Below, piece after piece: positions 12,305 through 33,552 of a stretch of 37,817 nt of DNA (the first letter of the stretch is position 1; every line of letters begins with the position of its first letter). Below the pieces are notes generated by a model. That model worked only from the letters and a program-made list of their open reading frames with translations, made no database searches and was not told where the DNA came from. The position numbers and the translations under genes are program-made. Origin of the DNA: a bacterium (GTDB lineage: Bacteria; Auribacterota; UBA3054); assembly GCA_017539325.1 (NCBI GenBank), contig JAFYHD010000018.1, forward strand, positions 1 to 37,817, read 5' to 3'.

Positions 12305-12342
12305 CCCTTCTTTTTTCAGCGCCCGTTTGCGCTGCCCAAATC

Positions 12343-20198: not shown

Positions 20199-21656
20199 TT
20201 ATTCCTGAGGTTTGGCGAAGGCTTTGTCGATCACTTCTTGCGGGACTTTCGAGGTGAAGGCGCTCACTATGGGCACCACCGCGAAAGGGATTATGATGGA
20301 AATGACCGAGCACATGGTGGCCGGGAGCTTCGTGACGTTCACGAGAACGAGCTGGACGCCAAGGCCGAAGATGATGCCGGCTAAGGCGCCGGCTTTCGTG
20401 ACGTTTTTGGAATAGAGTCCGTAGATGTAGGGGGCAAGGAAAGCGCCGCCCACCGCGCCCCAACTGAGGCTCATAAGGTCGACGATGAACTTGCTGTTGG
20501 TGTGCGCGATGAGGTACGAGGTCAGGAGGAACAGGGCGCTCATGATCCTCATCAGCGTTACGCTGGCGCCTTCGGAGACGTTCCTGTTGACGCAGCCCTT
20601 GTAGAAGTCGATGGCCACCGTGGAGGAGGAGACCAGAACAAGGCTGGAGAGCGTGGACATGGAGGCGGAGAGGATGAGGAGCAGGAACAGCGCCATCAGA
20701 GGACCGGGCAGCCAGGCCTTCAGCATGATGGGGACAAGCGTGTCGTAAACGCCCTTGGTGTCGGGCAACCCGGCTTGGAAGTAAAGGTGCGTCATGGCGC
20801 CGGAGAAATAGGCGGCGCAGCCTATTATGAAGGCGAAGATGGTGGTGATCACGGTGGCTTTCACGATGACCGACTCGCTTTTTATGGCGTAGTATTTCTG
20901 GATCATCTGCGGAAGGCCCCAGGGGGCGAAGGAAGTCATCAGAACGGCCGAGGCCAGCGTCCACCAGCCGAAGCTGGAGACTTCCACATGCTCGATCCTG
21001 GCGGCGGTGATGTTCTGGAAGACGCTGCCGAAGCCGCCGCCCTTGCCGGCCAATACGTAGACCAGAAGAACGGAGCCCGCCAGCATGATGATGCCCTGGA
21101 TGAAGTCGGTCAGCGTCATGGCGAGATATCCGCCCAAAAGAAGGTAGATGGCGGCCACGCCGGTCATGAGCCACAAGGCGACCTCGTAAGGGATCCCGAA
21201 GTTTTCCTGGAAGAGATAGCCGAGGCCCTTGTAGACCGAGGCGGAATAGGGGACCAAAAAGATGAAGATTATGAGAGCGGCCAGCGGCCTGAGGTATTTC
21301 GCGTCATAGCGGGTGGCGAAAAATTCCGGCATGGTCATGGCGCCAAGGTTCTGCGTCATGCGGCGCGTTCTCTTCGCCAGGACGATCCAGGCCAGAAGCG
21401 CGCCGAAGACGGCGTTGCCGATGCCGATGCTCATGGCCGGCCAGCCGAACTTCCAGCCCAAGTTTCCGGCGAAGCCGATGAAGATGACGGCGGAAAAGTA
21501 GCTGGTGCCGTAGGAAAAGGCGGAGATCCAGGGACCAACGTTGCGGCCGCCCAGAAAGAAGTCCTCAAGGCTTTTCGTGCGGCGCATGGCGTAGACGCCG
21601 GTGCAGGCCAGAAGGATTATGAAAGCGATAAGCAAAATTGCGTTGAGGGATAACAT
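20199..21656 (-). CDS. Sodium:solute symporter (SSS family)
   Basis: The 485-residue product is an integral membrane protein with about 13 hydrophobic helices. SSS marks are the N-terminal SLEDFFLGGRNVGPWISAFS, the sodium-site region YGTSYFSAVIFIGFAGNLGW, LLGGYLAMTLTDFIQGIIML, and SSFGWWTLASAVLMTSFAPWGLPQMIQKYYA. Family members bring in proline, pantothenate, sugars or carboxylates with sodium; the substrate cannot be read from sequence. It starts 3 nt after the stop of an aryl-CoA ligase gene and is the last gene of that minus-strand group. An aryl acid such as phenylacetate is therefore a reasonable guess, by context only. The start has no strong ribosome site and is probably translationally coupled to the ligase. 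Confidence 0.93.
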   Translation of the reverse strand: MLSLNAILLIAFIILLACTGVYAMRRTKSLEDFFLGGRNVGPWISAFSYGTSYFSAVIFIGFAGNLGWKFGWPAMSIGIGNAVFGALLAWIVLAKRTRRMTQNLGAMTMPEFFATRYDAKYLRPLAALIIFIFLVPYSASVYKGLGYLFQENFGIPYEVALWLMTGVAAIYLLLGGYLAMTLTDFIQGIIMLAGSVLLVYVLAGKGGGFGSVFQNITAARIEHVEVSSFGWWTLASAVLMTSFAPWGLPQMIQKYYAIKSESVIVKATVITTIFAFIIGCAAYFSGAMTHLYFQAGLPDTKGVYDTLVPIMLKAWLPGPLMALFLLLILSASMSTLSSLVLVSSSTVAIDFYKGCVNRNVSEGASVTLMRIMSALFLLTSYLIAHTNSKFIVDLMSLSWGAVGGAFLAPYIYGLYSKNVTKAGALAGIIFGLGVQLVLVNVTKLPATMCSVISIIIPFAVVPIVSAFTSKVPQEVIDKAFAKPQE

Positions 21657-21659
21657 TTT

Positions 21660-22976
21660 TTATTTTTCCTTAGGTCTGTTGTCGATTACGCGGGCCGCTT
21701 TGCCGGTGAAACGCTCGATAGACTGCGGCTGTACCAGGTCAACTTCGAAGTGGATGCCGGTGTAGGAGCGGATGGTCTCCTCCAGATTGGTCTTCAGCAT
21801 CTGCATCTCGCTCATCTTGTCCGAGAAGAAGGCGGGGCTCATCTCGACCTGGACCACGGAGCGGTCCAGCGAGCCCGGACGGTCAAGGACGATGAGGAAG
21901 TTCGGGGTGACGTCCTTGCACTGCAGAAGGGCCTCTTCAACCTGGCTTGGGAAGACGTTGACGCCCCTTATGATCAGCATGTCGTCGGAGCGGCCTTTTA
22001 TCCTGCTCATCCTCTTGGTCGTCCTGCCGCAGGGGCAGGGGGAATCTTTCACGATATAGGCCAGGTCCCTGGTGCGGTACCTTATCATCGGCATGGCTTC
22101 CTTGTTGAGGGGCGTGATGACAAGTTCTCCCAGCTCGCCTTCGGGCACGGGCTCCAAAGTTTTGGGGTCGAGGCATTCCACTAGGAAGTAGTCCTCCTGG
22201 ATGTGCATGCCGGTGTGGTAGACGCACTCGCCGGAGATGCCGGGCCCTATGACTTCCGAAAGCCCGTAGTTGTTGCAGGTGTTGACCTGGAGCCTATCCT
22301 CGATGTAGAGGCGCATCTCTTCCGTCCAGGGCTCGCTGCCCAAAAACGCGACTTTCAGATTCAAACTTTCCCTGGGGATCTTCTCGTCCTCCATGTATTC
22401 GATGAGCCTCAAAGCGTAGGTCGGGGTGCAGACCAAGAGTTCCGGCTTGAGGTCCTGAAGAAGCGTGAACTGTCTCCTGGTGTTGCCGCTGGCGGCCGGG
22501 ATGATGGAGGAGCCGATCTTCTCAAGGCCGTAGTGCAGCCCGAAGCCGCCGGTGAAAAGGCCGTAGCCGAAACTGATCTGGGCGGTGTGACCCGGGCGGG
22601 CGCCGCCGGAATAGAGAAAGCGGGCCACCATGTCGGACCACATCTCCAAATCGTTTTTCGTGTAGGCGACGAAGGTCGGCTTTCCGGTGGTGCCGGAAGA
22701 TCCGTGGAAGCGCAGAACTTTTTCCTTGGGGACCGCCATGAGGCCCAAGGGATAGTTTTCCCGCATGTCGGTCTTGGTGGTGAAGGGCAGATATTTTACG
22801 TCACTTACGCTTTTGATGTCCTCGGGGCCTATGCCCAGTTCCTTGAATTTTTTGGCGTAGAAGGGGACGTTTTGGACCCTTTTCACGGTCTCTCTCAGTC
22901 TCTGGACCTGAATACTTTCGATCTCATCCCGGGAAAGGCACTCCGACTTGTCCCAGATCTTGTTTTCCAGTTTCAT
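21660..22976 (-). CDS. Phenylacetate-CoA ligase family enzyme, copy 1
   Basis: The 438-residue product is an ATP-dependent acyl-adenylate-forming enzyme of the PaaK type. The P-loop-like SSGTTGKP is at residues 93-100. Later marks are GFGLHYGLEKIGSSIIPAASGNT, the adenylate motif NNYGLSEVIGPG, IRYRTRDLAYI, and the C-terminal GRSDDMLIIRGVNVFPSQVEEAL. A Cys pair (CPCG) precedes the hinge, as is usual in this family. The reaction expected is aryl acetate plus CoA plus ATP to aryl-acetyl-CoA, AMP and PPi. It follows an ACT-domain gene by 11 nt. A second ACT-ligase pair lies just upstream. No phenylacetyl-CoA epoxidase (paaABCDE) or iorAB genes are present, so the fate of the CoA ester is unknown. 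Archaeal and anaerobic bacterial PaaK-ACT neighbours often go with indolepyruvate:ferredoxin oxidoreductase. Confidence 0.92.
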   Translation of the reverse strand: MKLENKIWDKSECLSRDEIESIQVQRLRETVKRVQNVPFYAKKFKELGIGPEDIKSVSDVKYLPFTTKTDMRENYPLGLMAVPKEKVLRFHGSSGTTGKPTFVAYTKNDLEMWSDMVARFLYSGGARPGHTAQISFGYGLFTGGFGLHYGLEKIGSSIIPAASGNTRRQFTLLQDLKPELLVCTPTYALRLIEYMEDEKIPRESLNLKVAFLGSEPWTEEMRLYIEDRLQVNTCNNYGLSEVIGPGISGECVYHTGMHIQEDYFLVECLDPKTLEPVPEGELGELVITPLNKEAMPMIRYRTRDLAYIVKDSPCPCGRTTKRMSRIKGRSDDMLIIRGVNVFPSQVEEALLQCKDVTPNFLIVLDRPGSLDRSVVQVEMSPAFFSDKMSEMQMLKTNLEETIRSYTGIHFEVDLVQPQSIERFTGKAARVIDNRPKEK

Positions 22977-22987
22977 TTTTTATGGCT

Positions 22988-23416
22988 CTATTTGTTGGTG
23001 TTGAAAAGTTCTTGCGAGCTCAAGACGCAGAATCCGTTGGAAACGAGTTTGGAATAGGCTTTCTCAGTGTCGCTCACGCGGTAGAGGAAGATGTGGCGGT
23101 TGGCGAAGGCGTAGACGTACTCGACGTTTATCTCTTCTTTGTTCAGGATGTCCGCCACCTGGGCCAGGCGTCCCGGCTGGTTGTCGATCCTGACCGCCAG
23201 GACGTCCGCGATGTTGACCACGTAGCCGGCTTTTTCAAGCAGGGCCTTGGCGGCTTCGGAGTCTTCCACGATCATCCTTAAGATGCCGAACTGGGCCGTG
23301 TCGGCCAAGGTCAGGGTATAGATGTTCACTCCGGCTTCGCCAAGGGTGCTGCAGATCACATAGACGTTTCCGGGCTTGTTCTCCAAAAAGAGGGAAAGCT
23401 GTTTTACGGTTTCCAT
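22988..23416 (-). CDS. Tandem ACT-domain protein, copy 1
   Basis: The 142-residue product is made of two ACT domains (about 4-68 and 70-140). They start with VKQLSLFLENKPGNVYVICSTL and IADVLAVRIDNQPGRLAQVADIL, each with the ligand-site pattern N-x-P-G. ACT domains bind amino acids and regulate enzymes. Here there is no catalytic domain, so it is a free-standing sensor or partner. The ATG at 23416 follows AAAAGGAGACTTTTTCT, a strong ribosome site; a longer in-frame reading exists upstream but has no such site. By eye about 65% of positions match the second ACT gene (24854-25288). It precedes ligase copy 1 by 11 nt, so the two are co-transcribed. Regulation of the ligase by an aromatic amino acid is inference. 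Confidence 0.88.
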   Translation of the reverse strand: METVKQLSLFLENKPGNVYVICSTLGEAGVNIYTLTLADTAQFGILRMIVEDSEAAKALLEKAGYVVNIADVLAVRIDNQPGRLAQVADILNKEEINVEYVYAFANRHIFLYRVSDTEKAYSKLVSNGFCVLSSQELFNTNK

Positions 23417-23469
23417 AGAAAAAGTCTCCTTTTTGTTAAGAAGATATGTTTCTAACCTAATATAATAAC

Positions 23470-23503
23470 ATACCGGGCAAGGGGGGGTGCCCTTGCCCGG
23501 TAT
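23470..23503 (-). terminator. Hairpin between the two ACT-ligase pairs
   Basis: ATACCGGGCAAGGG and CCCTTGCCCGGTAT form a 14-bp stem around GGGGTG (plus-strand reading), just after ligase copy 2 on the minus strand. The downstream minus-strand sequence GTTATTATATTAG is AT-rich but lacks a true T-run, so this may be a partial terminator or an mRNA-stability hairpin. The same AT-rich stretch could hold a promoter for the downstream pair. Confidence 0.55.
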
Positions 23504-23526
23504 TGAGGGAGTGGAACCGGCCGCGC

Positions 23527-24840
23527 TTAGCTGTTCCTGAGGTCGGTCACGCGCTTGGCTTTGCCCATGGAGCGCTCGAGGCTTCCGGGTTCCACGGGGG
23601 TGACGGTGACCGCCAGGCCTATTATGCTCTTGATGGCGTTGCCGATCTTCTTCTGGATGACCTCGATGGAGCGGATGGTGTCGCCGAAGAGTTCCGCGGA
23701 GAGTTCCACCTGCACTTCCAGGGTGTCGAGGTCGCCATGGCGCCTGACTATGATGTGGTAGTGCGGCTGGACGCCCGGGATCGTAAGCAGGGCCGCCTCG
23801 ATCTGACTCGGGAAGACGTTGACGCCCCTTATTATGAGCATGTCGTCGTTCCTGTGGTCGATGCGTTTTATCCTTCTGATGGTGCGGCCGCATTCGCACG
23901 TGCCTTTCACGATGACGGAGATGTCCCTCGTGCGGTAGCGGATCATGGGCATGCCGAACTTGTTCAGCGTGGTGATGACCAGTTCGCCTTCCGTGCCGTC
24001 GGGCAGCGCCTCGCCGGTCTCGGGGTCGATCACTTCGGGATAGAAGAGGTCTTCGAACATGTGCAGACCGGTCCTGGCGGGGCAGTCCATGGCGACGCCC
24101 GGACCGCTGATCTCGGTAAGGCCGTAGATGTCCCAGGCCTTGATGCCGGACTCCTGCTCGATCCTCTGGCGCATCTCGCTTGTCCAGGGCTCGGCGCCGA
24201 AGATGCCGTGCCTTAATTTCATCTTCTTGAAGTCGTAGCCGAGCTGCTTGGCTTTTTCAATAATGTGGAGGAAATAGCTTGGCGTGCAGCTGATCGCTGT
24301 GACGCCGAAGTCACTCATCAGCTTTATCTGGCGCTCGGTGTTGCCGCTGGAGATGGGCAATACGGTGACGCCCAGCCCCTCGGCGCCGTAATGAAGCCCC
24401 ATGCCGCCGGTGAAAAGGCCGTAGCCGTAGGCGTTCTGAAGAATGTCGCCGGAGCCGATGCCCGCGATCATCAAAGCGCGCATGGTGGCTTCCTGCCAGC
24501 ATGCCACGTCCTCTTTGGTATAAGCCATGACAATGGGGCTTCCCGTGGTGCCGGAGCTTGCCTGCAGCCTTATGATGTTTTCCATCGGCACGCACAGAAG
24601 CCCGAAGGGATAGGTGTCACGAAGATCCACCTTCTTGAAGAAGGGGAGCTTCTGGATGTCTTTCAGCTCCTTGATGCAGGTATCGTCAAGGCCTTTCTCC
24701 TGCATGCGGGATCTGAAGAGCGCTTGGTTCTTGTAGGCGTGGGAGACTATGTTTTTGAGCCTTTTCAACTGGATGCTTTCCAGTTCGTCGCGGCTCATGA
24801 AATCTTTTTGCGCTAGGGCTTGTAAAGCTGATCTTTCCAT
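23527..24840 (-). CDS. Phenylacetate-CoA ligase family enzyme, copy 2
   Basis: The 437-residue product has the same plan as copy 1: SSGTTGSP at residues 95-102, GMGLHYGAEGLGVTVLPISSGNT, DIYGLTEISGPG, IRYRTRDISVIVKG, and HRNDDMLIIRGVNVFPSQIEAAL. A CECG cysteine pair precedes the hinge. The two ligases are clearly homologous but much more diverged than their ACT partners, so they may act on different aryl acids (for example phenylacetate, 4-hydroxyphenylacetate or indoleacetate). This gene begins 13 nt after the second ACT gene and ends just before the hairpin at 23470-23503. The substrate is not readable from the sequence. Confidence 0.92.
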   Translation of the reverse strand: MERSALQALAQKDFMSRDELESIQLKRLKNIVSHAYKNQALFRSRMQEKGLDDTCIKELKDIQKLPFFKKVDLRDTYPFGLLCVPMENIIRLQASSGTTGSPIVMAYTKEDVACWQEATMRALMIAGIGSGDILQNAYGYGLFTGGMGLHYGAEGLGVTVLPISSGNTERQIKLMSDFGVTAISCTPSYFLHIIEKAKQLGYDFKKMKLRHGIFGAEPWTSEMRQRIEQESGIKAWDIYGLTEISGPGVAMDCPARTGLHMFEDLFYPEVIDPETGEALPDGTEGELVITTLNKFGMPMIRYRTRDISVIVKGTCECGRTIRRIKRIDHRNDDMLIIRGVNVFPSQIEAALLTIPGVQPHYHIIVRRHGDLDTLEVQVELSAELFGDTIRSIEVIQKKIGNAIKSIIGLAVTVTPVEPGSLERSMGKAKRVTDLRNS

Positions 24841-24853
24841 ATTGTCTTATCTT

Positions 24854-25288
24854 TTAGTTTTCGTTTTCATTGGAGAAGAGTTCCTCGTGGGAAAGGAGCG
24901 AGAACCCGTTGCCGCTCAGGATCTGGAAGGCTTTCTCGTTGTCGCTGACGCGGAGGAGGAAGATCCTTCTCATGGCGAAGGCGTAGGCGTATTCCAGATT
25001 GATGTTTTCCTTGGACAGGAGCTCGTAGATCGTGGCCAGGACGCCCGGGCGGTTGTCGATCTTGACCGCCAGGACTTCGGTTATGTTGACGATCACTCCC
25101 GCCTTTTTAAGGATCTCGCCGGCCGCTTCGGGCTTTTCCACAATAAGGCGCAGAAGCCCGAACTGGTTCGTGTCGGCCAAGGACAGCGTAAAGATGTTTA
25201 TGCCGGCGTCGCCTAAAGTCTTGCAGATATTGTAGGCGTGGCCGGGCTTGTTCTCCAGAAAAACGGAAAGCTGTTTGGCGGTTTTCAT
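24854..25288 (-). CDS. Tandem ACT-domain protein, copy 2
   Basis: The 144-residue product has two ACT domains with the motifs LENKPGHAYNICKTLGDAG and VKIDNRPGVLATIYELL. The start at 25288 is set by AAAAGGAGACTTAC just upstream, nearly the same ribosome site as for copy 1. An upstream in-frame Met exists but lacks one. It is the first gene of the minus-strand aryl-acid group. It faces, across about 160 nt, the leader of the aromatic biosynthesis operon on the plus strand, so the two groups share one divergent control region. A role as sensor of Phe, Tyr or Trp is plausible from this context and from the same fold in prephenate dehydratase, but is not demonstrated. Confidence 0.88.
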   Translation of the reverse strand: MKTAKQLSVFLENKPGHAYNICKTLGDAGINIFTLSLADTNQFGLLRLIVEKPEAAGEILKKAGVIVNITEVLAVKIDNRPGVLATIYELLSKENINLEYAYAFAMRRIFLLRVSDNEKAFQILSGNGFSLLSHEELFSNENEN

Positions 25289-25390
25289 GTAAGTCTCCTT
25301 TTGGGTTGCTTGGGAAAACATTTTCTACAAGTTTAGCAAAATATCCGGATAAAAATCTACCGGTTAATATTTTCCTCAGGGGGGCGGCTA

Positions 25391-25419
25391 TTGCAAAATG
25401 AAAACGAAAGTGCTACCAT
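25391..25419 (+). promoter_or_regulatory. Candidate promoter of the aromatic operon leader
   Basis: TTGCAA (25391-25396) and TACCAT (25414-25419) are spaced by 17 nt, upstream of the leader-peptide ORF. Each hexamer matches the sigma70 consensus at four of six positions. Transcription would start near 25426, about 23 nt before the leader ATG. The divergent minus-strand promoter must lie between here and 25288 but is not clear. Confidence 0.5.
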
Positions 25420-25448
25420 AGTTCCCAAACAATCACGGAAAACTGAAC

Positions 25449-25523
25449 ATGAATTTCAATTTCGGCTATTGGTTCTACTTTTATTTTACCGAGCTTTCTC
25501 AAGCTGGGGGAACCTTGTCGTAG
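25449..25523 (+). CDS. Aromatic-rich leader peptide (attenuation control)
   Basis: A 24-codon ORF starts at ATG 25449, 8 nt after GGAA (25437-25440), and ends with TAG at 25521-25523. Nine of residues 3-13 (FNFGYWFYFYF) are aromatic: five Phe, three Tyr and one Trp. The rest (TELSQAGGTLS) is ordinary. Such a composition by chance in 24 codons is very unlikely. It sits directly before a terminator hairpin with a competing antiterminator and then the gene for DAHP synthase, the first step toward those amino acids. The layout is that of the E. coli pheA and pheST leaders: ribosomes stall at the aromatic codons when charged tRNAs are scarce, which lets the operon be read. The peptide itself probably has no other function. 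Both Phe and Tyr codons are present, so it should respond to either shortage. Confidence 0.88.
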   Translation: MNFNFGYWFYFYFTELSQAGGTLS

Positions 25524-25590
25524 TCGAATAGAAGAGGATTCAGAACACGAAGAGAGCCTGGCTTGAGCAAAGCCGGGCTCTTTCTTTTTT
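25492..25590 (+). promoter_or_regulatory. Attenuator: antiterminator and terminator of the aromatic operon
   Basis: Three mutually exclusive pairings are visible. Early hairpin: AGCTT (25492-25496) with AAGCT (25501-25505). Antiterminator: CTCAAGCTGGG (25498-25508) with CCTGGCTTGAG (25557-25567), 11 pairs including two G-U. Terminator: a stem of about 13 bp (25552-25564 with 25570-25582, two G-U) followed by CTTTTTT to 25590. The antiterminator uses the left half of the terminator stem, so only one can form. A ribosome held at the aromatic codons (up to 25487) would cover the early hairpin's left arm and leave 25498-25508 free. A ribosome reaching the stop codon at 25521 would cover it and let the terminator form. 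Confidence 0.82.
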
Positions 25591-25623: not shown

Positions 25624-26631
25624 ATGATAATACTTATCAAGCAAGGCGCCGAGAAAAGTCAGGTCGACAATCTGATCAACTGGCTGAAGGCTCACAATAT
25701 CGATCCGCACATCTCCGTCGGTTCTCACGAAACCCTGATCGGCTGCGTCGGCGACGTGGCTCACCTTGACATCGATCTCGTCTCCGCCCTGGACGTGGTG
25801 GCGAGCGTGCAGCGCGTGGGCGACCCCTACAAGGCCGCCAACCGCAAGTTCCATCCGGACGACTCTGTTATCGATTGCGGCGGCCCCAAGATCGGCGGCG
25901 GCAACTTCCAGGTCATCGCCGGCCCCTGCAGCGTGGAAAGCGAAGAGCAGATAATAGAGGTCGCCAAGGCGGTCAAGGCCGCCGGCGCGACGCTCCTCAG
26001 GGGCGGCGCCTTCAAGCCCAGGACCAGCCCCTACTCCTTCCAGGGCCTGGGCGTGGAAGGCTTGAAGATGCTCGTGGCCGCCAAGAAGGAGACCGGGCTG
26101 CCCATCGTCACCGAGCTGATGAACTTCTCGCAGTTCGAATACTTCAACGACGTCGACGTTATCCAGATCGGCGCCCGCAACATGCAGAACTTCGACATCC
26201 TTAAAGAAGTCGGCCACAACACCCAAAAGCCCATCCTTCTGAAGAGGGGACTTTCCTCCACTCTGCAGGAGCTTTTGATGAGCGCCGAGTACATCATGGC
26301 TTCCGGCAACCCCAACGTCATCCTCTGCGAACGCGGCATCAGGACTTTCGAGACGGCCACCAGGAACACCATAGACCTTTCCGTGGTGCCTTTGCTGCAC
26401 CAGTTCTCGCATCTGCCTGTGGTGGTCGACCCCAGCCACGCCACCGGCGTCGCCAGGCTCGTGCACCCCGTCGCGGTGGCGGCCACGGCCATCGGCGCGG
26501 ACGGCCTTATCATCGAGGTCCACAACGATCCGCCCAAGGCCAAGTGCGATGGCGCCCAGAGCCAGACGCCTGCCATGTTCGCCGAGACCATGAAGGCCAT
26601 CAAAGCGGTCCGTCCCTTCGCCTGCAAGTAA
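25624..26631 (+). CDS. aroF: 3-deoxy-7-phosphoheptulonate (DAHP) synthase, type I-beta with regulatory N-domain
   Basis: This condenses phosphoenolpyruvate and erythrose 4-phosphate, the entry step of the shikimate pathway. The 335-residue product has an N-terminal ferredoxin-like regulatory domain (about 1-70, starting MIILIKQGAEKSQVDNLINW). A TIM-barrel follows with AGPCSVES (99-106), KPRTSPYSFQG (from 131), QIGARNMQNF, KRGLSSTLQE, CERGIRTFE, VDPSHATG and the metal-binding region HNDPPKAKCDGAQSQ. This arrangement matches the Thermotoga-type enzymes whose N-domain gives feedback inhibition by Tyr or Phe. The ATG follows AAGGA. It is the first gene after the attenuator, so supply of aromatic amino acids is likely controlled at both transcription and enzyme level. 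Symbols aroF, aroG or aroA are used variably for this class. Confidence 0.96.
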   Translation: MIILIKQGAEKSQVDNLINWLKAHNIDPHISVGSHETLIGCVGDVAHLDIDLVSALDVVASVQRVGDPYKAANRKFHPDDSVIDCGGPKIGGGNFQVIAGPCSVESEEQIIEVAKAVKAAGATLLRGGAFKPRTSPYSFQGLGVEGLKMLVAAKKETGLPIVTELMNFSQFEYFNDVDVIQIGARNMQNFDILKEVGHNTQKPILLKRGLSSTLQELLMSAEYIMASGNPNVILCERGIRTFETATRNTIDLSVVPLLHQFSHLPVVVDPSHATGVARLVHPVAVAATAIGADGLIIEVHNDPPKAKCDGAQSQTPAMFAETMKAIKAVRPFACK

Positions 26632-26672: not shown

Positions 26673-27818
26673 ATGGACAAGGAAAACATAAGAACCGAGA
26701 TCGACGCCGTCGACGATAAGCTCGTCGACCTTTACCTGAAGCGCTTCGAGCTTGTCAAAGAGATCGCCAAGTACAAAGAGGAGAACAACGTTCCCGTCAG
26801 CGATCCGGCGAGGGAAAGGGAGATCCTTAAAAGGGTCGCCCTCAAGGCCGGACCGGAATTCGAGAACGAGGTCGCCATGCTCTTTACGGATCTCTTCAGC
26901 CTCTCCCGCGCCAAAGAGCGCCGCATGATCCTGAAAGAAAGCAAACTGGAAAGGGAGATAAACAGGGCTTTCGCCACCGCTCCCATGGAATTTCCCTCCC
27001 ACGCCACCGTCGCGTGCCAGGGGACGGAGGGCGCTTTCAGTCAGCAGGCGACCAGCGAGCTGTTCAAATTTCCCGCGATCCTTTTCTTCCATTCTTTCGC
27101 CGACATCTTCAGCGCTGTTGAGAAAGGCATGTGCCAGTACGGCGTCCTGCCGATCGAGAACTCCTCGGCCGGCTCTGTGACGGCGGTCTACGACCAGATG
27201 AGGAGCCACGACTTCAGGATCGTCAGGGCCGTCAAGCTCCACGTGTCGCACGCGCTCATGGTCAACAAGGGCGTGACGAAAAGCGACATCAAGGAAGTGA
27301 AGAGCCATCCCCAGGCGCTTTCGCAGTGCTCGATCTTCCTGCACGGCCTGAAGGGCGTCAAGCAGACTCCCGCCGCCAACACGGCCATGGCCGCCAGGGA
27401 GCTCAGGGAGAGCGGCAGGACCGACCTGGCGGTCGTAGCCTCGAAAAGCTGCGCCGAATTGTACGGCCTGGAAGTCCTTGAACCTAACATCTGCGACACG
27501 CCTTCCAACTTCACGCGCTTCATCTGCATCTCAAGGGAACTGGAGATCTACAGGGACGCCGCCAAGATATCTTTGATGCTTACCCTGCCGCACAAGCCGG
27601 GCTCCCTTGCCAATATCCTTGCGAAGTTCTCCACCATCGGCTTGAACTTGACCAAACTGGAATCCAGGCCCATACCCGGCATGGAATTCGAATTCCGCTT
27701 CATCTTCGAGTTCGAGGCCAAGCCCAACGACCAGGACGCCATAAAGCTTTTGTCCGAACTTTCCACCGATCCTGAGATCGAACAGTTCACCTTCCTTGGG
27801 GCTTATGCTGAAATTTGA
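26673..27818 (+). CDS. pheA: Chorismate mutase-prephenate dehydratase (P-protein)
   Basis: This bifunctional enzyme makes phenylpyruvate, the precursor of Phe. The 381 residues fall into an AroQ-type chorismate mutase (about 1-90, IRTEIDAVDDKLVDLYLKR), a prephenate dehydratase (about 108-285, ACQGTEGAFSQQATSELF, GVLPIENSSAGSV, and TPSNFTRFICIS with the catalytic Thr-x-x-Phe-Asn-like site region), and an ACT domain (about 295-381, LPHKPGSLANILAKFSTIGLNLTKLESRP). The ESRP motif is the known Phe-binding signature for feedback inhibition. The gap to the DAHP synthase gene is 41 nt and contains an AT-rich stretch with a TATAAT at 26640-26645, which could be a secondary promoter but has no good -35. 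The 3' end overlaps tyrA by 14 bases. Confidence 0.96.
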   Translation: MDKENIRTEIDAVDDKLVDLYLKRFELVKEIAKYKEENNVPVSDPAREREILKRVALKAGPEFENEVAMLFTDLFSLSRAKERRMILKESKLEREINRAFATAPMEFPSHATVACQGTEGAFSQQATSELFKFPAILFFHSFADIFSAVEKGMCQYGVLPIENSSAGSVTAVYDQMRSHDFRIVRAVKLHVSHALMVNKGVTKSDIKEVKSHPQALSQCSIFLHGLKGVKQTPAANTAMAARELRESGRTDLAVVASKSCAELYGLEVLEPNICDTPSNFTRFICISRELEIYRDAAKISLMLTLPHKPGSLANILAKFSTIGLNLTKLESRPIPGMEFEFRFIFEFEAKPNDQDAIKLLSELSTDPEIEQFTFLGAYAEI

Positions 27819-28605
27819 CTTTGAAAAGATCGCGATAGTCGGAATGGGACTTATCGGCGGCTCCTTTTACAAGGCCGTAAAGAAAAAGGGCCTTGCCGTA
27901 ACTGGCATCGACAAGAACGATCCCGTGGAAGTAGGGGACGCCGATCTTGTGATCATCGCTCTGCATCCGGGACTCGCGATCGATTGGCTCAAGGCGCACA
28001 ACAAAAAGATCAAGCCGGGAGCCCTTGTCTTGGACGTCTGCGGCGTGAAAGCGGCCCTGTGCAAGGCGGCCGCGGAACTGGAGAAGGACTGGACCTTCCT
28101 GGGAGGACACCCCATGGCCGGAAAAGAAGTCAGCGGCTTCGAGAATTCCAGCGCCGCGCTTTTCGAAGGGGCCTCCATGATCCTGACGCCGCAGACGGAA
28201 AAGGAAGCGGAGGCGGCGGAAAGCTTAAGACCTTTCTTCGAGTCGCTGGGCTTCGCCAGGGTCATTCTGACCACGCCGGAAAAGCACGACGAAATGATCG
28301 CCTACACCAGCCAGCTCTGCCACATCCTTTCCAACGCCTACTTAAGGGACGAGCTGGCCCTGAAGTCAAAGGGTTTCGCCGGCGGCAGCTTCCGCGACCT
28401 CACCAGAGTGGGCGCCCCGGACCCTAAGCTCTGGACGGAGCTTTTCATAATGGACAGGGAAGCTCTGCTCCCGATCATCGACCGTTTTATGGAAAGGCTT
28501 TCCGATTTCCGCTCCGCCCTGGAAAAGAAAGACGAAGAAGCCATGCGTTCCCAGCTCCGGGAGGGAACCCTAATGAAAGAAAAACTCACCTCGCAAAAGA
28601 AATGA
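27805..28605 (+). CDS. tyrA: Prephenate dehydrogenase
   Basis: This NAD(P)-linked enzyme turns prephenate into 4-hydroxyphenylpyruvate, the precursor of Tyr. From ATG 27805 it has 266 residues. The nucleotide-binding loop is VGMGLIGG (12-19), GGHPMAGKEVSGFENS follows the Rossmann part (about 102-117), and the helical C-domain carries HDEMIAYTSQLCHILSNAY and GGSFRDLTRVGAPDPKLW. There is no ACT domain and no fused chorismate mutase, so it is a monofunctional form. A TTG at 27796 is an alternative start. The start lies inside the end of pheA (14-base overlap) and the stop overlaps aroKB by four bases, so translation is coupled. Confidence 0.95.
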   Translation: MLKFDFEKIAIVGMGLIGGSFYKAVKKKGLAVTGIDKNDPVEVGDADLVIIALHPGLAIDWLKAHNKKIKPGALVLDVCGVKAALCKAAAELEKDWTFLGGHPMAGKEVSGFENSSAALFEGASMILTPQTEKEAEAAESLRPFFESLGFARVILTTPEKHDEMIAYTSQLCHILSNAYLRDELALKSKGFAGGSFRDLTRVGAPDPKLWTELFIMDREALLPIIDRFMERLSDFRSALEKKDEEAMRSQLREGTLMKEKLTSQKK

Positions 28606-29984
28606 ACACTCTCTTCCTCTACGGCCCTCCCGCCAGCGGCAAAACGACCCTGGGCAAAAAACTAGCCGAAGCCTTGAGGCGTCCTTTCTTCGACCTGGAC
28701 GATGAAATAGTCAAGGCCAAAGGGAAAAGCATCCCCAAGATCTTCGAAGCGGGCGGCGAAGCGGCCTTCCGCAAAGCCGAGTGCGAGACTTTGAGAGCGC
28801 TCGTCAAGAGGCCCGACAGTCAGGGCGCCGTTATCGCGCTGGGCGGCGGCACGCTACTTGACGCTTCCAACCGCGAACTGGCGGAAAAAGAGGGCAGAGT
28901 CTGGTGCCTTGAGGCTCCTTCGCAAGAAGAGCTGGACAGACGTTTCGCCGCCAAGCCCGGCGCCCGTCCCCTTGGCAACAAGGCCGAGGAACGCAAGGCC
29001 CACTACGCCGCCTTCCCAAGGCGCGTCGCCCAGAAATTCTTCCTCAAGGATTCCCTTGTCGTGGTGGGGGACGACCTTGGCCCTCTCAAGGGGTTCGCCG
29101 ATCTTGTCATCGCGGACGACAACGCCGCCAAAGCCAACAAGTCCGCCCTCGCCAACGCGACCATAGAGACGATCCCCAGCGGCGAGCAGTTTAAGAATCT
29201 TAAGACCGTGGAAAGGATCTGGGAATTCGCCCTCTCCCACGGATTGGGCCGCAAGAACACATTGGCCGCTTTCGGAGGCGGCGTGACGGGCGATCTGACC
29301 GGATTTGCGGCCGCGACCTTTATGCGCGGCATCAACTGGATCAACATTCCCACCACGTTGCTTTCCATGGTGGACGCCTCCACCGGCGGCAAGACCGGCT
29401 GCGATCTGCCCTGCGGCAAGAATCTAGTGGGCGCCTTCCATTTTCCCAAGCTTGTCCTCATAGACGCGGCTTATCTTAAGACATTGCCTGAAAATGAACT
29501 CAAGAACGGCCGGGCGGAAATGATCAAGCACGAGATTATCAAAGGTCTCGCTCCTGGAAATTACAAGGCCATTCCCTCCGCTCAGGAAATAGGGGACAAC
29601 CTGGCCGTGAAAGTCGAGATGGTCACGAAGGATCCCTACGAACAGAAAGGCTTCCGTCTTCTTCTCAACTGCGGCCACACCGTGGGCCACGCTCTGGAGA
29701 TCGCTACCAACTTCTCTTTCTCCCACGGCCAGGCCGTAGCCATAGGCATGGTCGAGGAAGCAAAGCTCGCTCAAAAACTCGGGCTCGCGAAACCGGAATT
29801 CGTAAATGAACTGAAAGACCGCATCGCCGCGGCGGGCCTTCCCACCGAGCTTCCCCAGGACGTCACTTTTGCCAGCTTGAAAGACATCATGCTGAAAGAT
29901 AAGAAGCACCAGGGCCGGACCGTCACCTTCGCCCTTCCCTGCGCCATGGGAGACGTGCGCGCCGTACCCATCGAACTGAAGTAA
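28602..29984 (+). CDS. aroKB: Shikimate kinase-3-dehydroquinate synthase fusion (AroKB)
   Basis: Two shikimate-pathway enzymes are joined in one 460-residue chain. Residues 1-165 are shikimate kinase: Walker A GPPASGKTT (8-16), FFDLDDEIVKAKG, and ALGGGTL. Residues about 170-460 are dehydroquinate synthase: AFGGGVTGDLTGFAAATFMRG, IPTTLLSMVDASTGGKTG, ELKNGRAEMIKHEII, DPYEQKGFRLLLNCGHTVGHALE and FSHGQAVAIGM. The kinase is the fifth step and the synthase the second step of the route. The synthase part is about 290 residues, shorter than the E. coli enzyme (about 360), as expected for the compact fusion type found in Thermotoga. The start overlaps tyrA (ATGA). It avoids the need for separate aroK and aroB genes in this operon. 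Confidence 0.96.
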   Translation: MNTLFLYGPPASGKTTLGKKLAEALRRPFFDLDDEIVKAKGKSIPKIFEAGGEAAFRKAECETLRALVKRPDSQGAVIALGGGTLLDASNRELAEKEGRVWCLEAPSQEELDRRFAAKPGARPLGNKAEERKAHYAAFPRRVAQKFFLKDSLVVVGDDLGPLKGFADLVIADDNAAKANKSALANATIETIPSGEQFKNLKTVERIWEFALSHGLGRKNTLAAFGGGVTGDLTGFAAATFMRGINWINIPTTLLSMVDASTGGKTGCDLPCGKNLVGAFHFPKLVLIDAAYLKTLPENELKNGRAEMIKHEIIKGLAPGNYKAIPSAQEIGDNLAVKVEMVTKDPYEQKGFRLLLNCGHTVGHALEIATNFSFSHGQAVAIGMVEEAKLAQKLGLAKPEFVNELKDRIAAAGLPTELPQDVTFASLKDIMLKDKKHQGRTVTFALPCAMGDVRAVPIELK

Positions 29985-29988
29985 TTAT

Positions 29989-31437
29989 ATGTCCGCTCCC
30001 AAAGTTTGCCTGACCATCACCGCCCAAATGCTCGAGGAAGCGGTCCTGCTGGCGCGCGAATACGCGCCCTTTATCGACCTCATAGAGCTAAGGGCCGATC
30101 ATCTCAAGGCAGGGGAGCGCGCCAACATTTCGAATTTTCCCAAGCAGGTCGATCGTCCCTGCATCCTAACCGTCCGCAGAAAAACTGACGGCGGCGTCTT
30201 CGAGGGCGGAGAACAGGAACGGCAGGCCTTGCTGAAAGAGCTTACTAACTTCGCTTTCGTCGATCTGGAAAAAGACATAACCGCTTCCGAGCTTGAGCAT
30301 CTCGCCGAAACTTCCGGCACCGGGATCATCAGGAGCGCGCACTATTTCGAGCCGACGTCAGCCGATCTTATTTCCGCCATCGACAGTCAGGCGAGAAGCA
30401 AAAGCGAGATCCCCAAAGTAGCCTTCACGCCCAGGAGCGCCGCGGACATGGCGGAACTTTTCACACTGGTAAAACAGCTGCCCAAGCGCGACAGGATCAT
30501 CTGCGCCATGGGCAGCGTTGGTTTCCCCTCCAGAGTTCTCGCCCAGCGCCTCGGCTCGTTCCTTACTTTCACTTCCCCCAAAAAGCTCAGCGCCAATACG
30601 GCGACACTCGGCCACACCGATCCCATAAGTCTTCAGCAGATCTACGATTTCAAAAACATCTCCGGCAAGACGGCTCTCTGCGGCGTGACCGGCTGGCCTC
30701 TGACCGTCACCTCCAGCCCCGAAGTCCACAGGAAGTTTTACGAGGAGGAAAAACTGAACGCCCTCATGCTTCCCATGCCCGCGGAAAAAATAGAGGACGC
30801 CCTTCTGCTTGCCGAGACTCTTGGCATGAAAGGCCTGGCCGTCACCATTCCGCACAAGGAGGCGCTTCTCCCGCATCTCGACGAAGCCGACGAGGCCGTC
30901 AAAATTATCGGCACCGCTAACACGGTGGTTTTCAAGGATGGAAGAAAGATCGGTCACAATACCGACGCTCCTGGTTTCGCCAAAGCCCTGAAGACCTTAA
31001 TACAGAAAGACTCCTTGAAGGGCCTGCGCACTGCCGTCCTCGGTTCCGGAGGCGCGGCCAAGGCGATAGCCTGCGCCCTCTGCAAGGAAGGAGCGGAAAC
31101 AACCGTTTTCGCCCGCGACCTCGCCAAGGCCAAAGCAGTCGCGGACAAATACGGCTTCGCTTCCGCGCTCCTAACGGATCTCACCTCCGACTTCAAGCCC
31201 GACATCATCGTGCAGTGCACTTCCGTGGGCCTGCAAGGCTCAGCCACGGAAGGCATGGACCCCATCCCTCAGTACGAATTCCAAGGACGCGAGGTCCTTT
31301 ACGATATAATCTACAAACCTGAAGCGACGCCCGTCATGCAAAGAGCCCAGGCCAAGGGCTGCCTTACTTCCAACGGCCTCTCCATGCTCATAGAGCAGGC
31401 CAAGCTTCAGCATCAATTATTCTTCCACACCATCTAA
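29989..31437 (+). CDS. aroDE: 3-dehydroquinate dehydratase-shikimate dehydrogenase fusion (AroDE)
   Basis: The 482-residue fusion performs steps three and four of the pathway. Residues 1-215 are a type I dehydroquinase: IDLIELRADHL, LTVRRKTDGG, His118 in IRSAHYFEP and the Schiff-base Lys143 in IPKVAFTP are the expected catalytic residues. Residues about 222-482 are shikimate dehydrogenase: Lys290 in VTIPHKEALLP, Asp326 in GHNTDAPGF, and the NADP loop VLGSGGAAKAIACAL. The substrate loop that normally reads G.P..HS.SP..HN is GWPLTVTSSPEVHRK here, so the usual His and first Ser are Val and Thr. That is unusual and could alter substrate binding. Plant and chlamydial enzymes have the same domain order. 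It begins 4 nt after aroKB. Confidence 0.95.
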   Translation: MSAPKVCLTITAQMLEEAVLLAREYAPFIDLIELRADHLKAGERANISNFPKQVDRPCILTVRRKTDGGVFEGGEQERQALLKELTNFAFVDLEKDITASELEHLAETSGTGIIRSAHYFEPTSADLISAIDSQARSKSEIPKVAFTPRSAADMAELFTLVKQLPKRDRIICAMGSVGFPSRVLAQRLGSFLTFTSPKKLSANTATLGHTDPISLQQIYDFKNISGKTALCGVTGWPLTVTSSPEVHRKFYEEEKLNALMLPMPAEKIEDALLLAETLGMKGLAVTIPHKEALLPHLDEADEAVKIIGTANTVVFKDGRKIGHNTDAPGFAKALKTLIQKDSLKGLRTAVLGSGGAAKAIACALCKEGAETTVFARDLAKAKAVADKYGFASALLTDLTSDFKPDIIVQCTSVGLQGSATEGMDPIPQYEFQGREVLYDIIYKPEATPVMQRAQAKGCLTSNGLSMLIEQAKLQHQLFFHTI

Positions 31438-31441
31438 AATT

Positions 31442-32461
31442 ATGTCTTCCTCTTTCGGCAAAAATCTCAAGGTCACCATCTTCGGAGAATCCCACGGACC
31501 GGCAATTGGCTGCGTCTTAGAGGGCTTCCCGGCGGGCTTTGCCCCGGACATGGACAAAGTAACCGCCTTCATGCAAAGAAGAGCTTCCCGGGGACAAGCC
31601 GGCGCCACCGCCCGATCCGAGGAGGACCTCCCGGAAGTTCTCTCCGGCCTCTTCGAGGGAAAGACCTGCGGCACGCCCATCGCCGCGGTCATAAGGAACA
31701 ATAACACCCAATCCCAGGACTACGCCAACCTCAACGTCTGCCCCCGCCCGGGCCATGCGGACCTTACCTGGAACGCCAAGACGAAAGGCGCCAATGATTA
31801 CCGCGGCGGCGGCCACGCTTCTGGCAGACTAACCGCGCCCATGTGTTTCGCCGGCGCCCTGGCCAAGCAGTACCTGGAATCCCAAGGCGTCGCCGTCAAC
31901 GCCAGCATATGCTCCATCAAAGACCATCAGATCTCTGATAACCAAGACGAATTCGGTCTCGACGAGGAAGCCAGGAAAATCATCGAGGAAGCCCAAAAGG
32001 CAGGGGACAGCGTAGGCGGCATTATCGAGTGCGCCATAACAGGCCTTCCCATGGGTCTTGGATCTCCCATCTTCGACGGCGTGGAGAATAAGCTTAGCCA
32101 AGCCATCTTTGGCATCCCGGCCGTCAAGGGCATAGAATTCGGCAGCGGCTTCTCCGGCACCAAGCTTATGGGCTCGCAAAACAACGACGCCTTCGCTTAC
32201 AAGAACGGCAAGCCCGTTACCAAGACCAACAACGCGGGCGGAATATTAGGCGGCATCACCAACGGCATGCCCGTCACCTTCAGAGTCGCCGTCAAGCCCA
32301 CGCCTTCCATCGCCAAAGAGCAGCAGACCGTCGACCTTGACAAGAAGAAAGACGCCTCCCTTGAAATCAAAGGCCGCCATGACGCCTGCATCGTTCCCAG
32401 GGCGCTTCCCGTGGTGGAAGCCGTAGCCGCTCTTGTCGCACTCGATTTGCTCCTGGATTGA
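31442..32461 (+). CDS. aroC: Chorismate synthase
   Basis: This FMN-dependent lyase removes phosphate from EPSP to give chorismate. The 339-residue product has the three family signatures: FGESHGPAIGCVLEGFPAG (14-32), RPGHADLTWNAKTKGANDYRGGGHASGRLTA in two adjacent blocks, and near the end KGRHDACIVPRALPVVEA. RRASRGQAGATARSEED gives the basic phosphate-binding patch. It lies 4 nt after aroDE and 2 nt before aroA, deep inside the operon. Reduced FMN is needed, which suits an anaerobe, but no flavin reductase is in the window. Confidence 0.97.
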   Translation: MSSSFGKNLKVTIFGESHGPAIGCVLEGFPAGFAPDMDKVTAFMQRRASRGQAGATARSEEDLPEVLSGLFEGKTCGTPIAAVIRNNNTQSQDYANLNVCPRPGHADLTWNAKTKGANDYRGGGHASGRLTAPMCFAGALAKQYLESQGVAVNASICSIKDHQISDNQDEFGLDEEARKIIEEAQKAGDSVGGIIECAITGLPMGLGSPIFDGVENKLSQAIFGIPAVKGIEFGSGFSGTKLMGSQNNDAFAYKNGKPVTKTNNAGGILGGITNGMPVTFRVAVKPTPSIAKEQQTVDLDKKKDASLEIKGRHDACIVPRALPVVEAVAALVALDLLLD

Positions 32462-32463
32462 TT

Positions 32464-33552
32464 ATGTCTCTCACGCTTCCAATAGGCAAAAGAAAAGGCA
32501 CCGTTACGCCGCCTTTTTCCAAATCCCACCTTCACCGCCTTTTGATCGCGGACTTCCTGGGCGGGAACTTCCAGCGTCTGGCTCCCAGCCCAACGGACTC
32601 GGAAGATATTGCCGCCACCAAGCGCTGCCTCCTGGCTCTCGGAGAAGACACGAATACTCCCGTCCTCGACTGCGGCGAATCCGGCTCCACCCTGCGTTTC
32701 CTGAAACCCGTCGCCGCGGCCCTAAAAAAGCACCCCCGGTACGTCACCAAGGGCCGTTTAGCCGAGTGCCCTGGTATCGACTACCCTGAACTTGAATGCG
32801 GCCTCCACGAGCTTCCAGGCAACGTTTCCTCCCAGTTCGCCACCGGCCTCCTTTTCGCCCTGCCCATTCTCAAAGGCGATTCTGAGATAAGATTCAACAC
32901 GCCGCTGGAATCCAGAGGCTACGTTGACATGACGCTCCAGGTCTTAAGGCAAAGCGGTGTCACCATAACCGAAACACCAAGAGGCTTCCTCGTTCCCGGG
33001 AATCAGACTTACACAGCACCCGTAAACGTCGAGCCCGAGCGCGACTGGTCCGGCGCCTCCTTCTTCATTGCCATGAACTATCTTGGCTCCGAGATCAAAA
33101 TAAACGGCTTAAACGATGGTTCCTTGCAGCCCGACCGCGCTCTTCCCGAGCTTCTGAAAAAGCAGGGCGAAGTAATCGACGTCTCCCAGTGCCCGGACAT
33201 CTTCCCGCCATTGGCCGTCGCTTTTGCCGGCAAACCCGGAACCACCACCATCACCGGCATCAGAAGGCTGCGCCTTAAGGAATCCGACCGCGTGAAATCA
33301 ACTTCCGATCTGCTCACAAACCTCAACGTCAAACATGAGATTGCCGAAGACGCTTTCACGATCCAGGGCCAATCCCAACCCTTCTCTCCCAACCCAACCA
33401 CGATTCTAACCTACGGCGATCACCGCCTTGCCATGTCCGCCGCTGTCGCCGCCACCAATTCGCAAAACCCGATCGCCATCGACGACGCATCCTGCTGCGC
33501 AAAATCCTACCCCTCCTTCTTCGCGCAGTTCTCTTCCCTGGCTCTCATTTGA
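32464..33552 (+). CDS. aroA: 3-phosphoshikimate 1-carboxyvinyltransferase (EPSP synthase), short form
   Basis: This adds the enolpyruvyl group from PEP to shikimate 3-phosphate. The ATG at 32464 is chosen over a TTG at 32458. The product is 362 residues, about 60 fewer than E. coli AroA. Expected segments are present: PFSKSHLHRLLIADFLGG (the usual Lys-Ser-x-x-x-R start), DCGESGSTLRFLKP, SSQFATGLLFALP, LESRGYVDMTLQVL, ERDWSGASFFIAM, PDIFPPLAVAFA, RLRLKESDRVKST and YGDHRLAMSAAVA. The region between the first and second motifs and the loops of domain 1 are shortened. It is the last gene of the aromatic operon; no clear rho-independent terminator follows, only a small GCGCT/AGCGC hairpin (33575-33588) without a T-run. 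Confidence 0.95.
   Translation: MSLTLPIGKRKGTVTPPFSKSHLHRLLIADFLGGNFQRLAPSPTDSEDIAATKRCLLALGEDTNTPVLDCGESGSTLRFLKPVAAALKKHPRYVTKGRLAECPGIDYPELECGLHELPGNVSSQFATGLLFALPILKGDSEIRFNTPLESRGYVDMTLQVLRQSGVTITETPRGFLVPGNQTYTAPVNVEPERDWSGASFFIAMNYLGSEIKINGLNDGSLQPDRALPELLKKQGEVIDVSQCPDIFPPLAVAFAGKPGTTTITGIRRLRLKESDRVKSTSDLLTNLNVKHEIAEDAFTIQGQSQPFSPNPTTILTYGDHRLAMSAAVAATNSQNPIAIDDASCCAKSYPSFFAQFSSLALI

Follow-up and report, generated by a model that had tools for sequence, protein, structure and literature searches.

Leader-peptide attenuation is a textbook mechanism, known mostly from Proteobacteria and Actinobacteria with scattered cases in Firmicutes, and Lopatovskaya et al. are said to have surveyed attenuators across bacteria in 2010. 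The closest described systems are those of E. coli pheA (leader pheL) and pheST (leader pheM), in which a run of Phe codons in a short ORF goes with a terminator and with an antiterminator that shares the left arm of the terminator. Upstream of aroF, a candidate leader ORF named uORFC-13-1 carries at least one Phe codon, promoter elements and a terminator, and attenuation has been proposed for it; its 24 sequences come from Acholeplasma and environmental DNA only (PMC8632094). In 2010, leader-peptide attenuators were described as unknown outside Proteobacteria and Actinobacteria except for a his leader in bacilli (PMC2965389), and further his attenuators have been reported from Firmicutes, with one operon, in Lutispora, proposed to have been transferred together with its attenuator (PMC9413887). 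The sequence-only reading of the present locus had called this kind of attenuation best known from Proteobacteria and Actinobacteria; cases in Firmicutes were already reported as well (PMC2965389, PMC9413887).

Here we describe a leader in front of an aromatic biosynthesis operon in a stretch of 37,817 nt (the window). As in E. coli pheA and pheST, a short ORF with a run of sensing-type codons precedes a terminator whose left arm also takes part in an antiterminator, but here DAHP synthase heads an aro/phe/tyr operon of seven genes, the hosts belong to other phyla, and the leader would read Phe and Tyr plus one Trp. The locus is like uORFC-13-1, going by the published description, in placing a candidate Phe-codon leader before a DAHP synthase gene, and unlike it in having a run of Phe, Tyr and Trp codons rather than at least one Phe codon (PMC8632094). 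It shares with the Firmicutes his leaders an occurrence outside Proteobacteria and Actinobacteria (PMC2965389, PMC9413887), but those leaders have histidine codons and his genes, and the transfer proposed for them is within Firmicutes rather than between phyla. The best sub-threshold Rfam match, RF01859 Phe_leader, extends over the full 125 positions with 24.8 bits against a gathering score of 55 (E 0.03); the leader works like Phe_leader and is not a member of that family by its gathering score. We favor ribosome-mediated transcription attenuation by Phe and Tyr (perhaps Trp) codons over DAHPS-pheA-tyrA-aroKB-aroDE-aroC-aroA, with a probability of roughly 0.94. The mechanism is of a known kind, and descriptions of its hosts, transfer and recoding were not found in the literature searched; a text search, with most subscription papers outside its reach, returned nothing on such attenuators in Kiritimatiellia.

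The leader ORF and the operon

The elements upstream of the operon are as follows.

25391-25419, plus strand: promoter-like TTGCAA, 17 nt, TACCAT, with an extended -10 TG, about 30 nt before the leader ATG
25449-25523, plus strand: leader peptide ORF, ATG 25449 to TAG 25523, encoding MNFNFGYWFYFYFTELSQAGGTLS
25455-25487, plus strand: candidate sensing codons 3-13 (5 Phe, 3 Tyr, 1 Trp)
25489-25508, plus strand: 1:2 hairpin (CC.AGCUU-UCUC-AAGCU.GG), competing with the antiterminator
25498-25508, plus strand: antiterminator left arm, within the 3' part of the leader ORF
25551-25590, plus strand: intrinsic terminator, stem-loop 25551-25583 followed by CTTTTTT
25557-25567, plus strand: antiterminator right arm, overlapping the terminator left arm

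Translation of 25449-25523 gives the same 24-codon ORF that the sequence-only reading had reported, with the same nine aromatic residues among residues 3-13 (F3, F5, Y7, W8, F9, Y10, F11, Y12 and F13). Of 502 tiles of 300 nt covering both strands of the window, the one with this leader is alone in having an ATG ORF with nine aromatics within 12 residues, the runner-up tile reaching only five, and at least seven aromatics are found in 0 of 140 shuffles of the upstream regions of the genus. The aromatic leader at the aro operon is a genuine observation and is confirmed. The claimed promoter-like hexamers, TTGCAA at 25391 and TACCAT at 25414, are also present; they score 8 of 12 and on their own stand little above shuffles, but across the genus their spacing and the extended -10 TG are kept, and the trpE leader has them as well. 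The ribosome site that had been claimed is there as well, as a weak GGAAAA at 25437-25442. As for joint reading of Phe, Tyr and Trp, the Phe and Tyr part is supported and Trp is reduced to a possible minor input through one codon. Codons for Phe and Tyr dominate. Trp is present in 28 of 39 distinct Kiritimatiellia leaders, nearly always as one codon, and in 5 of 48 leaders of Clostridia and Anaerolineae; plausibly, Trp contributes a little to the sensing by Kiritimatiellia-type leaders, this one included.

The genes downstream were assigned with Pfam and NCBIfam.

25624-26631, plus strand: DAHP synthase (type I, PRK08673 / TIGR01361)
26673-27818, plus strand: pheA, chorismate mutase-prephenate dehydratase
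27796-28605, plus strand: tyrA, prephenate dehydrogenase
28602-29984, plus strand: aroK-aroB fusion, shikimate kinase and 3-dehydroquinate synthase
29989-31437, plus strand: aroD-aroE fusion, type I dehydroquinase and shikimate dehydrogenase
31442-32461, plus strand: aroC, chorismate synthase
32458-33552, plus strand: aroA, EPSP synthase

One gap of 41 nt apart, neighboring genes overlap or are separated by 4 nt, and because DAHP synthase and the six genes after it are spaced this tightly, control of all seven by one attenuator, as had been proposed, is a fair inference, resting on presumed co-transcription.

Competing RNA structures

Three competing pairings had been claimed, and a terminator, an 11-bp antiterminator and a further hairpin are indeed present. 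The terminator was found mechanically, with a stem of 14 pairs, a loop of 5 and a T run to 25590, and the leader RNA folds better than 200 of 200 shuffles (z -4.65). Base-by-base checking of the antiterminator pairing, 25498-25508 with 25557-25567, gives 11 bp, of which 9 are Watson-Crick and 2 G-U. The core of the 1:2 hairpin (AGCUU-UCUC-AAGCU, 25492-25505) takes up most of the antiterminator left arm. A terminator follows 94 of the 99 leaders having at least 6 aromatics. Taken as medians over the Kiritimatiellia leaders, the distance from the first base of the final aromatic codon to the start of the antiterminator arm is 9 nt, and that from the end of the arm to the end of the stop codon is 11 nt.

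Co-variation was assessed by partner swapping and on a small genus-only alignment; partner swapping was used because MAFFT, given all Kiritimatiellia leaders at once, puts the antiterminator arm of the genus in the wrong place. In 42 Kiritimatiellia-type leaders the antiterminator arm fits its own partner with a mean of 23.9 versus 19.0 for swapped partners, and in 43 other leaders with 19.4 versus 15.3; 0 of 2000 permutations reached the own-partner mean in each of the two sets. Only 23 of 43 Clostridia and Anaerolineae antiterminators lie above the 95th percentile of their own shuffles. Within the genus (aro and trpE leaders, six rows only), all pairs of the 1:2 hairpin are kept through two two-sided changes and the antiterminator shows one two-sided change; the terminator right arm lies one base out of register between aro and trp leaders in this alignment and was not counted. 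Judged by these sequence comparisons, the antiterminator arms co-vary between species. In many Kiritimatiellia terminators (L145-L152, L199, L201 and L210) the stem retains a C-A mismatch (CCCCGCUC opposite GAGCGAGG), whereas the antiterminator arm can pair without this mismatch, as if the balance between the two structures were tuned.

Predicted effect of ribosome position

Folding with a stalled ribosome assumed a footprint reaching back 12 nt from the P site and forward to 11 nt past the first base of the A-site codon, on a transcript ended at the antiterminator right arm. The predicted probability of the antiterminator is 0.95-0.99 with the ribosome stalled at codons 3-13, 0.46 at codon 15, 0 at codons 16-24 and 0.12 at the stop codon, compared with 0.66 for the ribosome-free RNA. 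Since this probability is high at codons 3-13 and zero at codons 16-24, the aromatic codons fill the permissive stall positions, and because the ribosome-free RNA still gives 0.66, a leader that is not being translated would be shut off only in part. Under the assumed footprint, a stalled ribosome is predicted to free the antiterminator arm and a ribosome further on to cover it. The probability falls likewise, two to three codons past the aromatic run, in most of ten further leaders; L059 and the trp leaders are less clean. For the full transcript at equilibrium the terminator wins whatever the position of the ribosome (P 0.92), so timing must decide, as in the classical model.

Occurrence of the leader in relatives

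A leader was counted when a 12-residue stretch ahead of the DAHP synthase gene held at least 7 aromatics. Each of the seven genomes of the genus with DAHP synthase of this type has the leader (shuffles, 0/140), G005 in the variant form MLNRINYGYWYFYFTGLSQVGVLCRI; in the eighth genome the gene is absent from an incomplete assembly. Leaders also stand at 39 of 87 DAHP synthase loci in Kiritimatiellia (shuffles, 1/1740) and at 43 of 58 loci in Clostridia and Anaerolineae (shuffles, 7/1160), and one Lentisphaerae leader has 6 aromatics. The upstream regions of orthologous aro loci, the comparison proposed at the outset, thus bear aromatic-rich short ORFs again and again, with co-varying arms, while the peptide sequences vary freely between species and keep their aromatic content. 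At many leaderless Kiritimatiellia loci DAHP synthase lies close behind another gene, and in L021 the operon begins with pheA and has the leader in front of that gene; the leader seems to belong to the operon head rather than to one particular gene. No aromatic leader was found upstream of pheS in the genus and the Kiritimatiellia tried, several start positions being poorly placed. The data point to attenuation as the control of aromatic amino acid synthesis in Kiritimatiellia of the rumen and gut, in many Clostridia, in Anaerolineae and in one more small phylum.

Phe/Tyr-run leaders precede most of the Clostridia and both of the Anaerolineaceae DAHP synthase genes examined among L038-L097, and many of these share a second structural type with terminator arm GCAGTGAAA and antiterminator arm TTTTGCTGC. 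G003 has the DAHP synthase locus with its leader twice (C1:3515-4519 and C5:30114-31118) with identical upstream sequence, which is either a true duplication or an assembly overlap.

Origin of the operon

The host belongs to a small phylum, represented by 44 genomes in the collection compared, with 15 for its class. In the rpoB tree it groups with its order-mate, apart from Kiritimatiellia (the G026 row of this tree and the L264 row of the TrpE tree have wrong or overlong frames and were disregarded). The sequence-only reading had spoken of a PVC example, and it needs correcting in that the host, by rpoB, is not a Kiritimatiellia genome; what looks Kiritimatiellia-derived is the operon. Its DAHP synthase is 81-82% identical to those of Kiritimatiellia G044, G045 and G206, and in the DAHP synthase tree the genus is nested in Kiritimatiellia as sister to G045 and G206 (support 97/84). 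G045 has leader-DAHPS-pheA-tyrA-aroKB-aroDE in the same order.

Vertical inheritance of the operon, or misbinning of the contig, would make transfer from Kiritimatiellia unnecessary. A DAHP synthase tree that groups the genus with its class-mates is indeed not rejected (p-AU 0.36), the class-mates sitting on one long branch. However, the class-mates have a distant DAHP synthase, only 53-56% identical and without a leader, as against the up to 82% identity to Kiritimatiellia, and a Kiritimatiellia clade without the genus is rejected (delta lnL 24.9, p-AU 0.018; other rows Clostridia and Anaerolineae). The AroK-AroB fusion is matched at full length in Kiritimatiellia (51-61%) but not in class- and phylum-mates, where only unfused AroB matches well. 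The locus is, moreover, found in seven genomes of the genus, once on a 458-kb contig. We consider vertical inheritance or misbinning improbable. Because DAHP synthase nests in Kiritimatiellia and the aroK-aroB fusion is Kiritimatiellia-like, transfer is the best reading, and the operon with its leader probably reached the genus from Kiritimatiellia, another phylum.

A Trp-codon leader at trpE

In the same genus, trpE (L233, L230 and L232; L233 is G000:C71, with trpE near 12306) is preceded by MNAKLNFWWWYAFTGLFQAGLFPRS or close variants, with an antiterminator and a terminator. This leader carries FWWWY, and from promoter to terminator its alignment with the aro leader scores far higher than shuffles do (z 23-37); the upstream 75 nt of both also align (z 7-17). 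The aro leaders of Kiritimatiellia resemble only the leader part of the genus trpE region (z 4-16). The WWW run, antiterminator and terminator are like those of proteobacterial trpL, a likeness of architecture, whereas by sequence the leader is homologous to the aro leader of its own genus. Since a homologous leader holds FWWWY at trpE, the leader codons follow the pathway.

Four Kiritimatiellia genomes (L231, L235, L236 and L237) have Trp-rich leaders with terminators at trpE, for example MICIAHNFNGWWWRNCGFGFAVCRAV, with no clear sequence relation to the trpE leaders of the genus, and in the TrpE tree the genus lies outside the Kiritimatiellia TrpE clade. No Trp-run leader was found at trpE in 19 class- and phylum-mates. 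Apparently, one leader unit was copied within the genus and its sensing codons were replaced, from aro to trp or the reverse. We would put even odds on a portable attenuator that crossed phyla with the aro operon, after which the promoter-leader-terminator unit was copied to the resident trp operon and re-aimed by putting a Trp run where the Phe/Tyr codons had been (or the other way round). The aro and trp leaders of one genome, alike from promoter to terminator and differing in their codons, amount to a natural codon-swap experiment, and through this pair one could test directly how attenuators originate, spread and acquire a new specificity.

Proposed mechanism and alternatives

The attenuation logic proposed from the sequence is strongly backed by conservation, by co-varying arms and by aromatic codons that fit the stall window, that is, codons matching the stalls that permit antitermination, together with the ORF and the three competing pairings as computed. 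For the transcription start, translation, pausing and the response to amino acids, we infer the following course. RNA polymerase would start near 25426, and a ribosome would begin to translate the leader ORF. If charged tRNA-Phe or tRNA-Tyr (perhaps tRNA-Trp) runs short, this ribosome would stall within codons 3-13, blocking the 1:2 hairpin and leaving 25498-25508 free to pair with 25557-25567 once this is made, so that the terminator would not form and the seven aro/phe/tyr genes would be transcribed. With the aromatic tRNAs charged, the ribosome would pass codon 15 and cover 25498-25508, and the terminator would form.

Attenuation might be real and yet answer to arrest by the nascent aromatic peptide, or to stalling by an antibiotic, rather than to tRNA charging. 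Attenuators that respond to antibiotics likewise use short leaders before terminators, as in the ribosome-mediated attenuator of BmrC/BmrD (PMC4191407), but here the peptide sequence is free to change among species so long as it stays aromatic, the downstream genes make exactly these amino acids, and Trp codons appear instead in the leader at trpE. Such a trigger is very unlikely.

The aro genes of Firmicutes are often under T-box control, which could speak for a metabolite riboswitch, a T-box or an RNA-binding protein driving the terminator, with the ORF secondary; tyrosine T-boxes are cited in PMC1262725. Scanning the window at Rfam thresholds gave no T-box or riboswitch match, and relaxing the limits for the leader gave none either. 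The roughly 23 nt between the inferred start site and the leader ATG are too short for an aptamer, and the conserved feature is the aromatic codons, exchanged for Trp at trpE, so we give control of this sort hardly any weight relative to tRNA-dependent attenuation.

That the leader is a chance ORF in a T-rich stretch before a constitutive terminator is scarcely credible, for although a single hairpin with a T run is expected 0.5 times per 500 nt of shuffled sequence, the leader is conserved across species and phyla and nearly absent in shuffles, the antiterminator arms fit their own leader's partner better than those of others, and there is no upstream transcript to terminate because the upstream gene lies on the opposite strand.

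On that opposite strand beside the aro operon (20199-25321 of the window and L018:1-2698) are phenylacetate-CoA ligase-like genes, a gene with a pair of ACT domains and a sodium:solute symporter, which may form an arylacetate salvage or uptake cluster. L018 holds a second ACT-PaaK pair.
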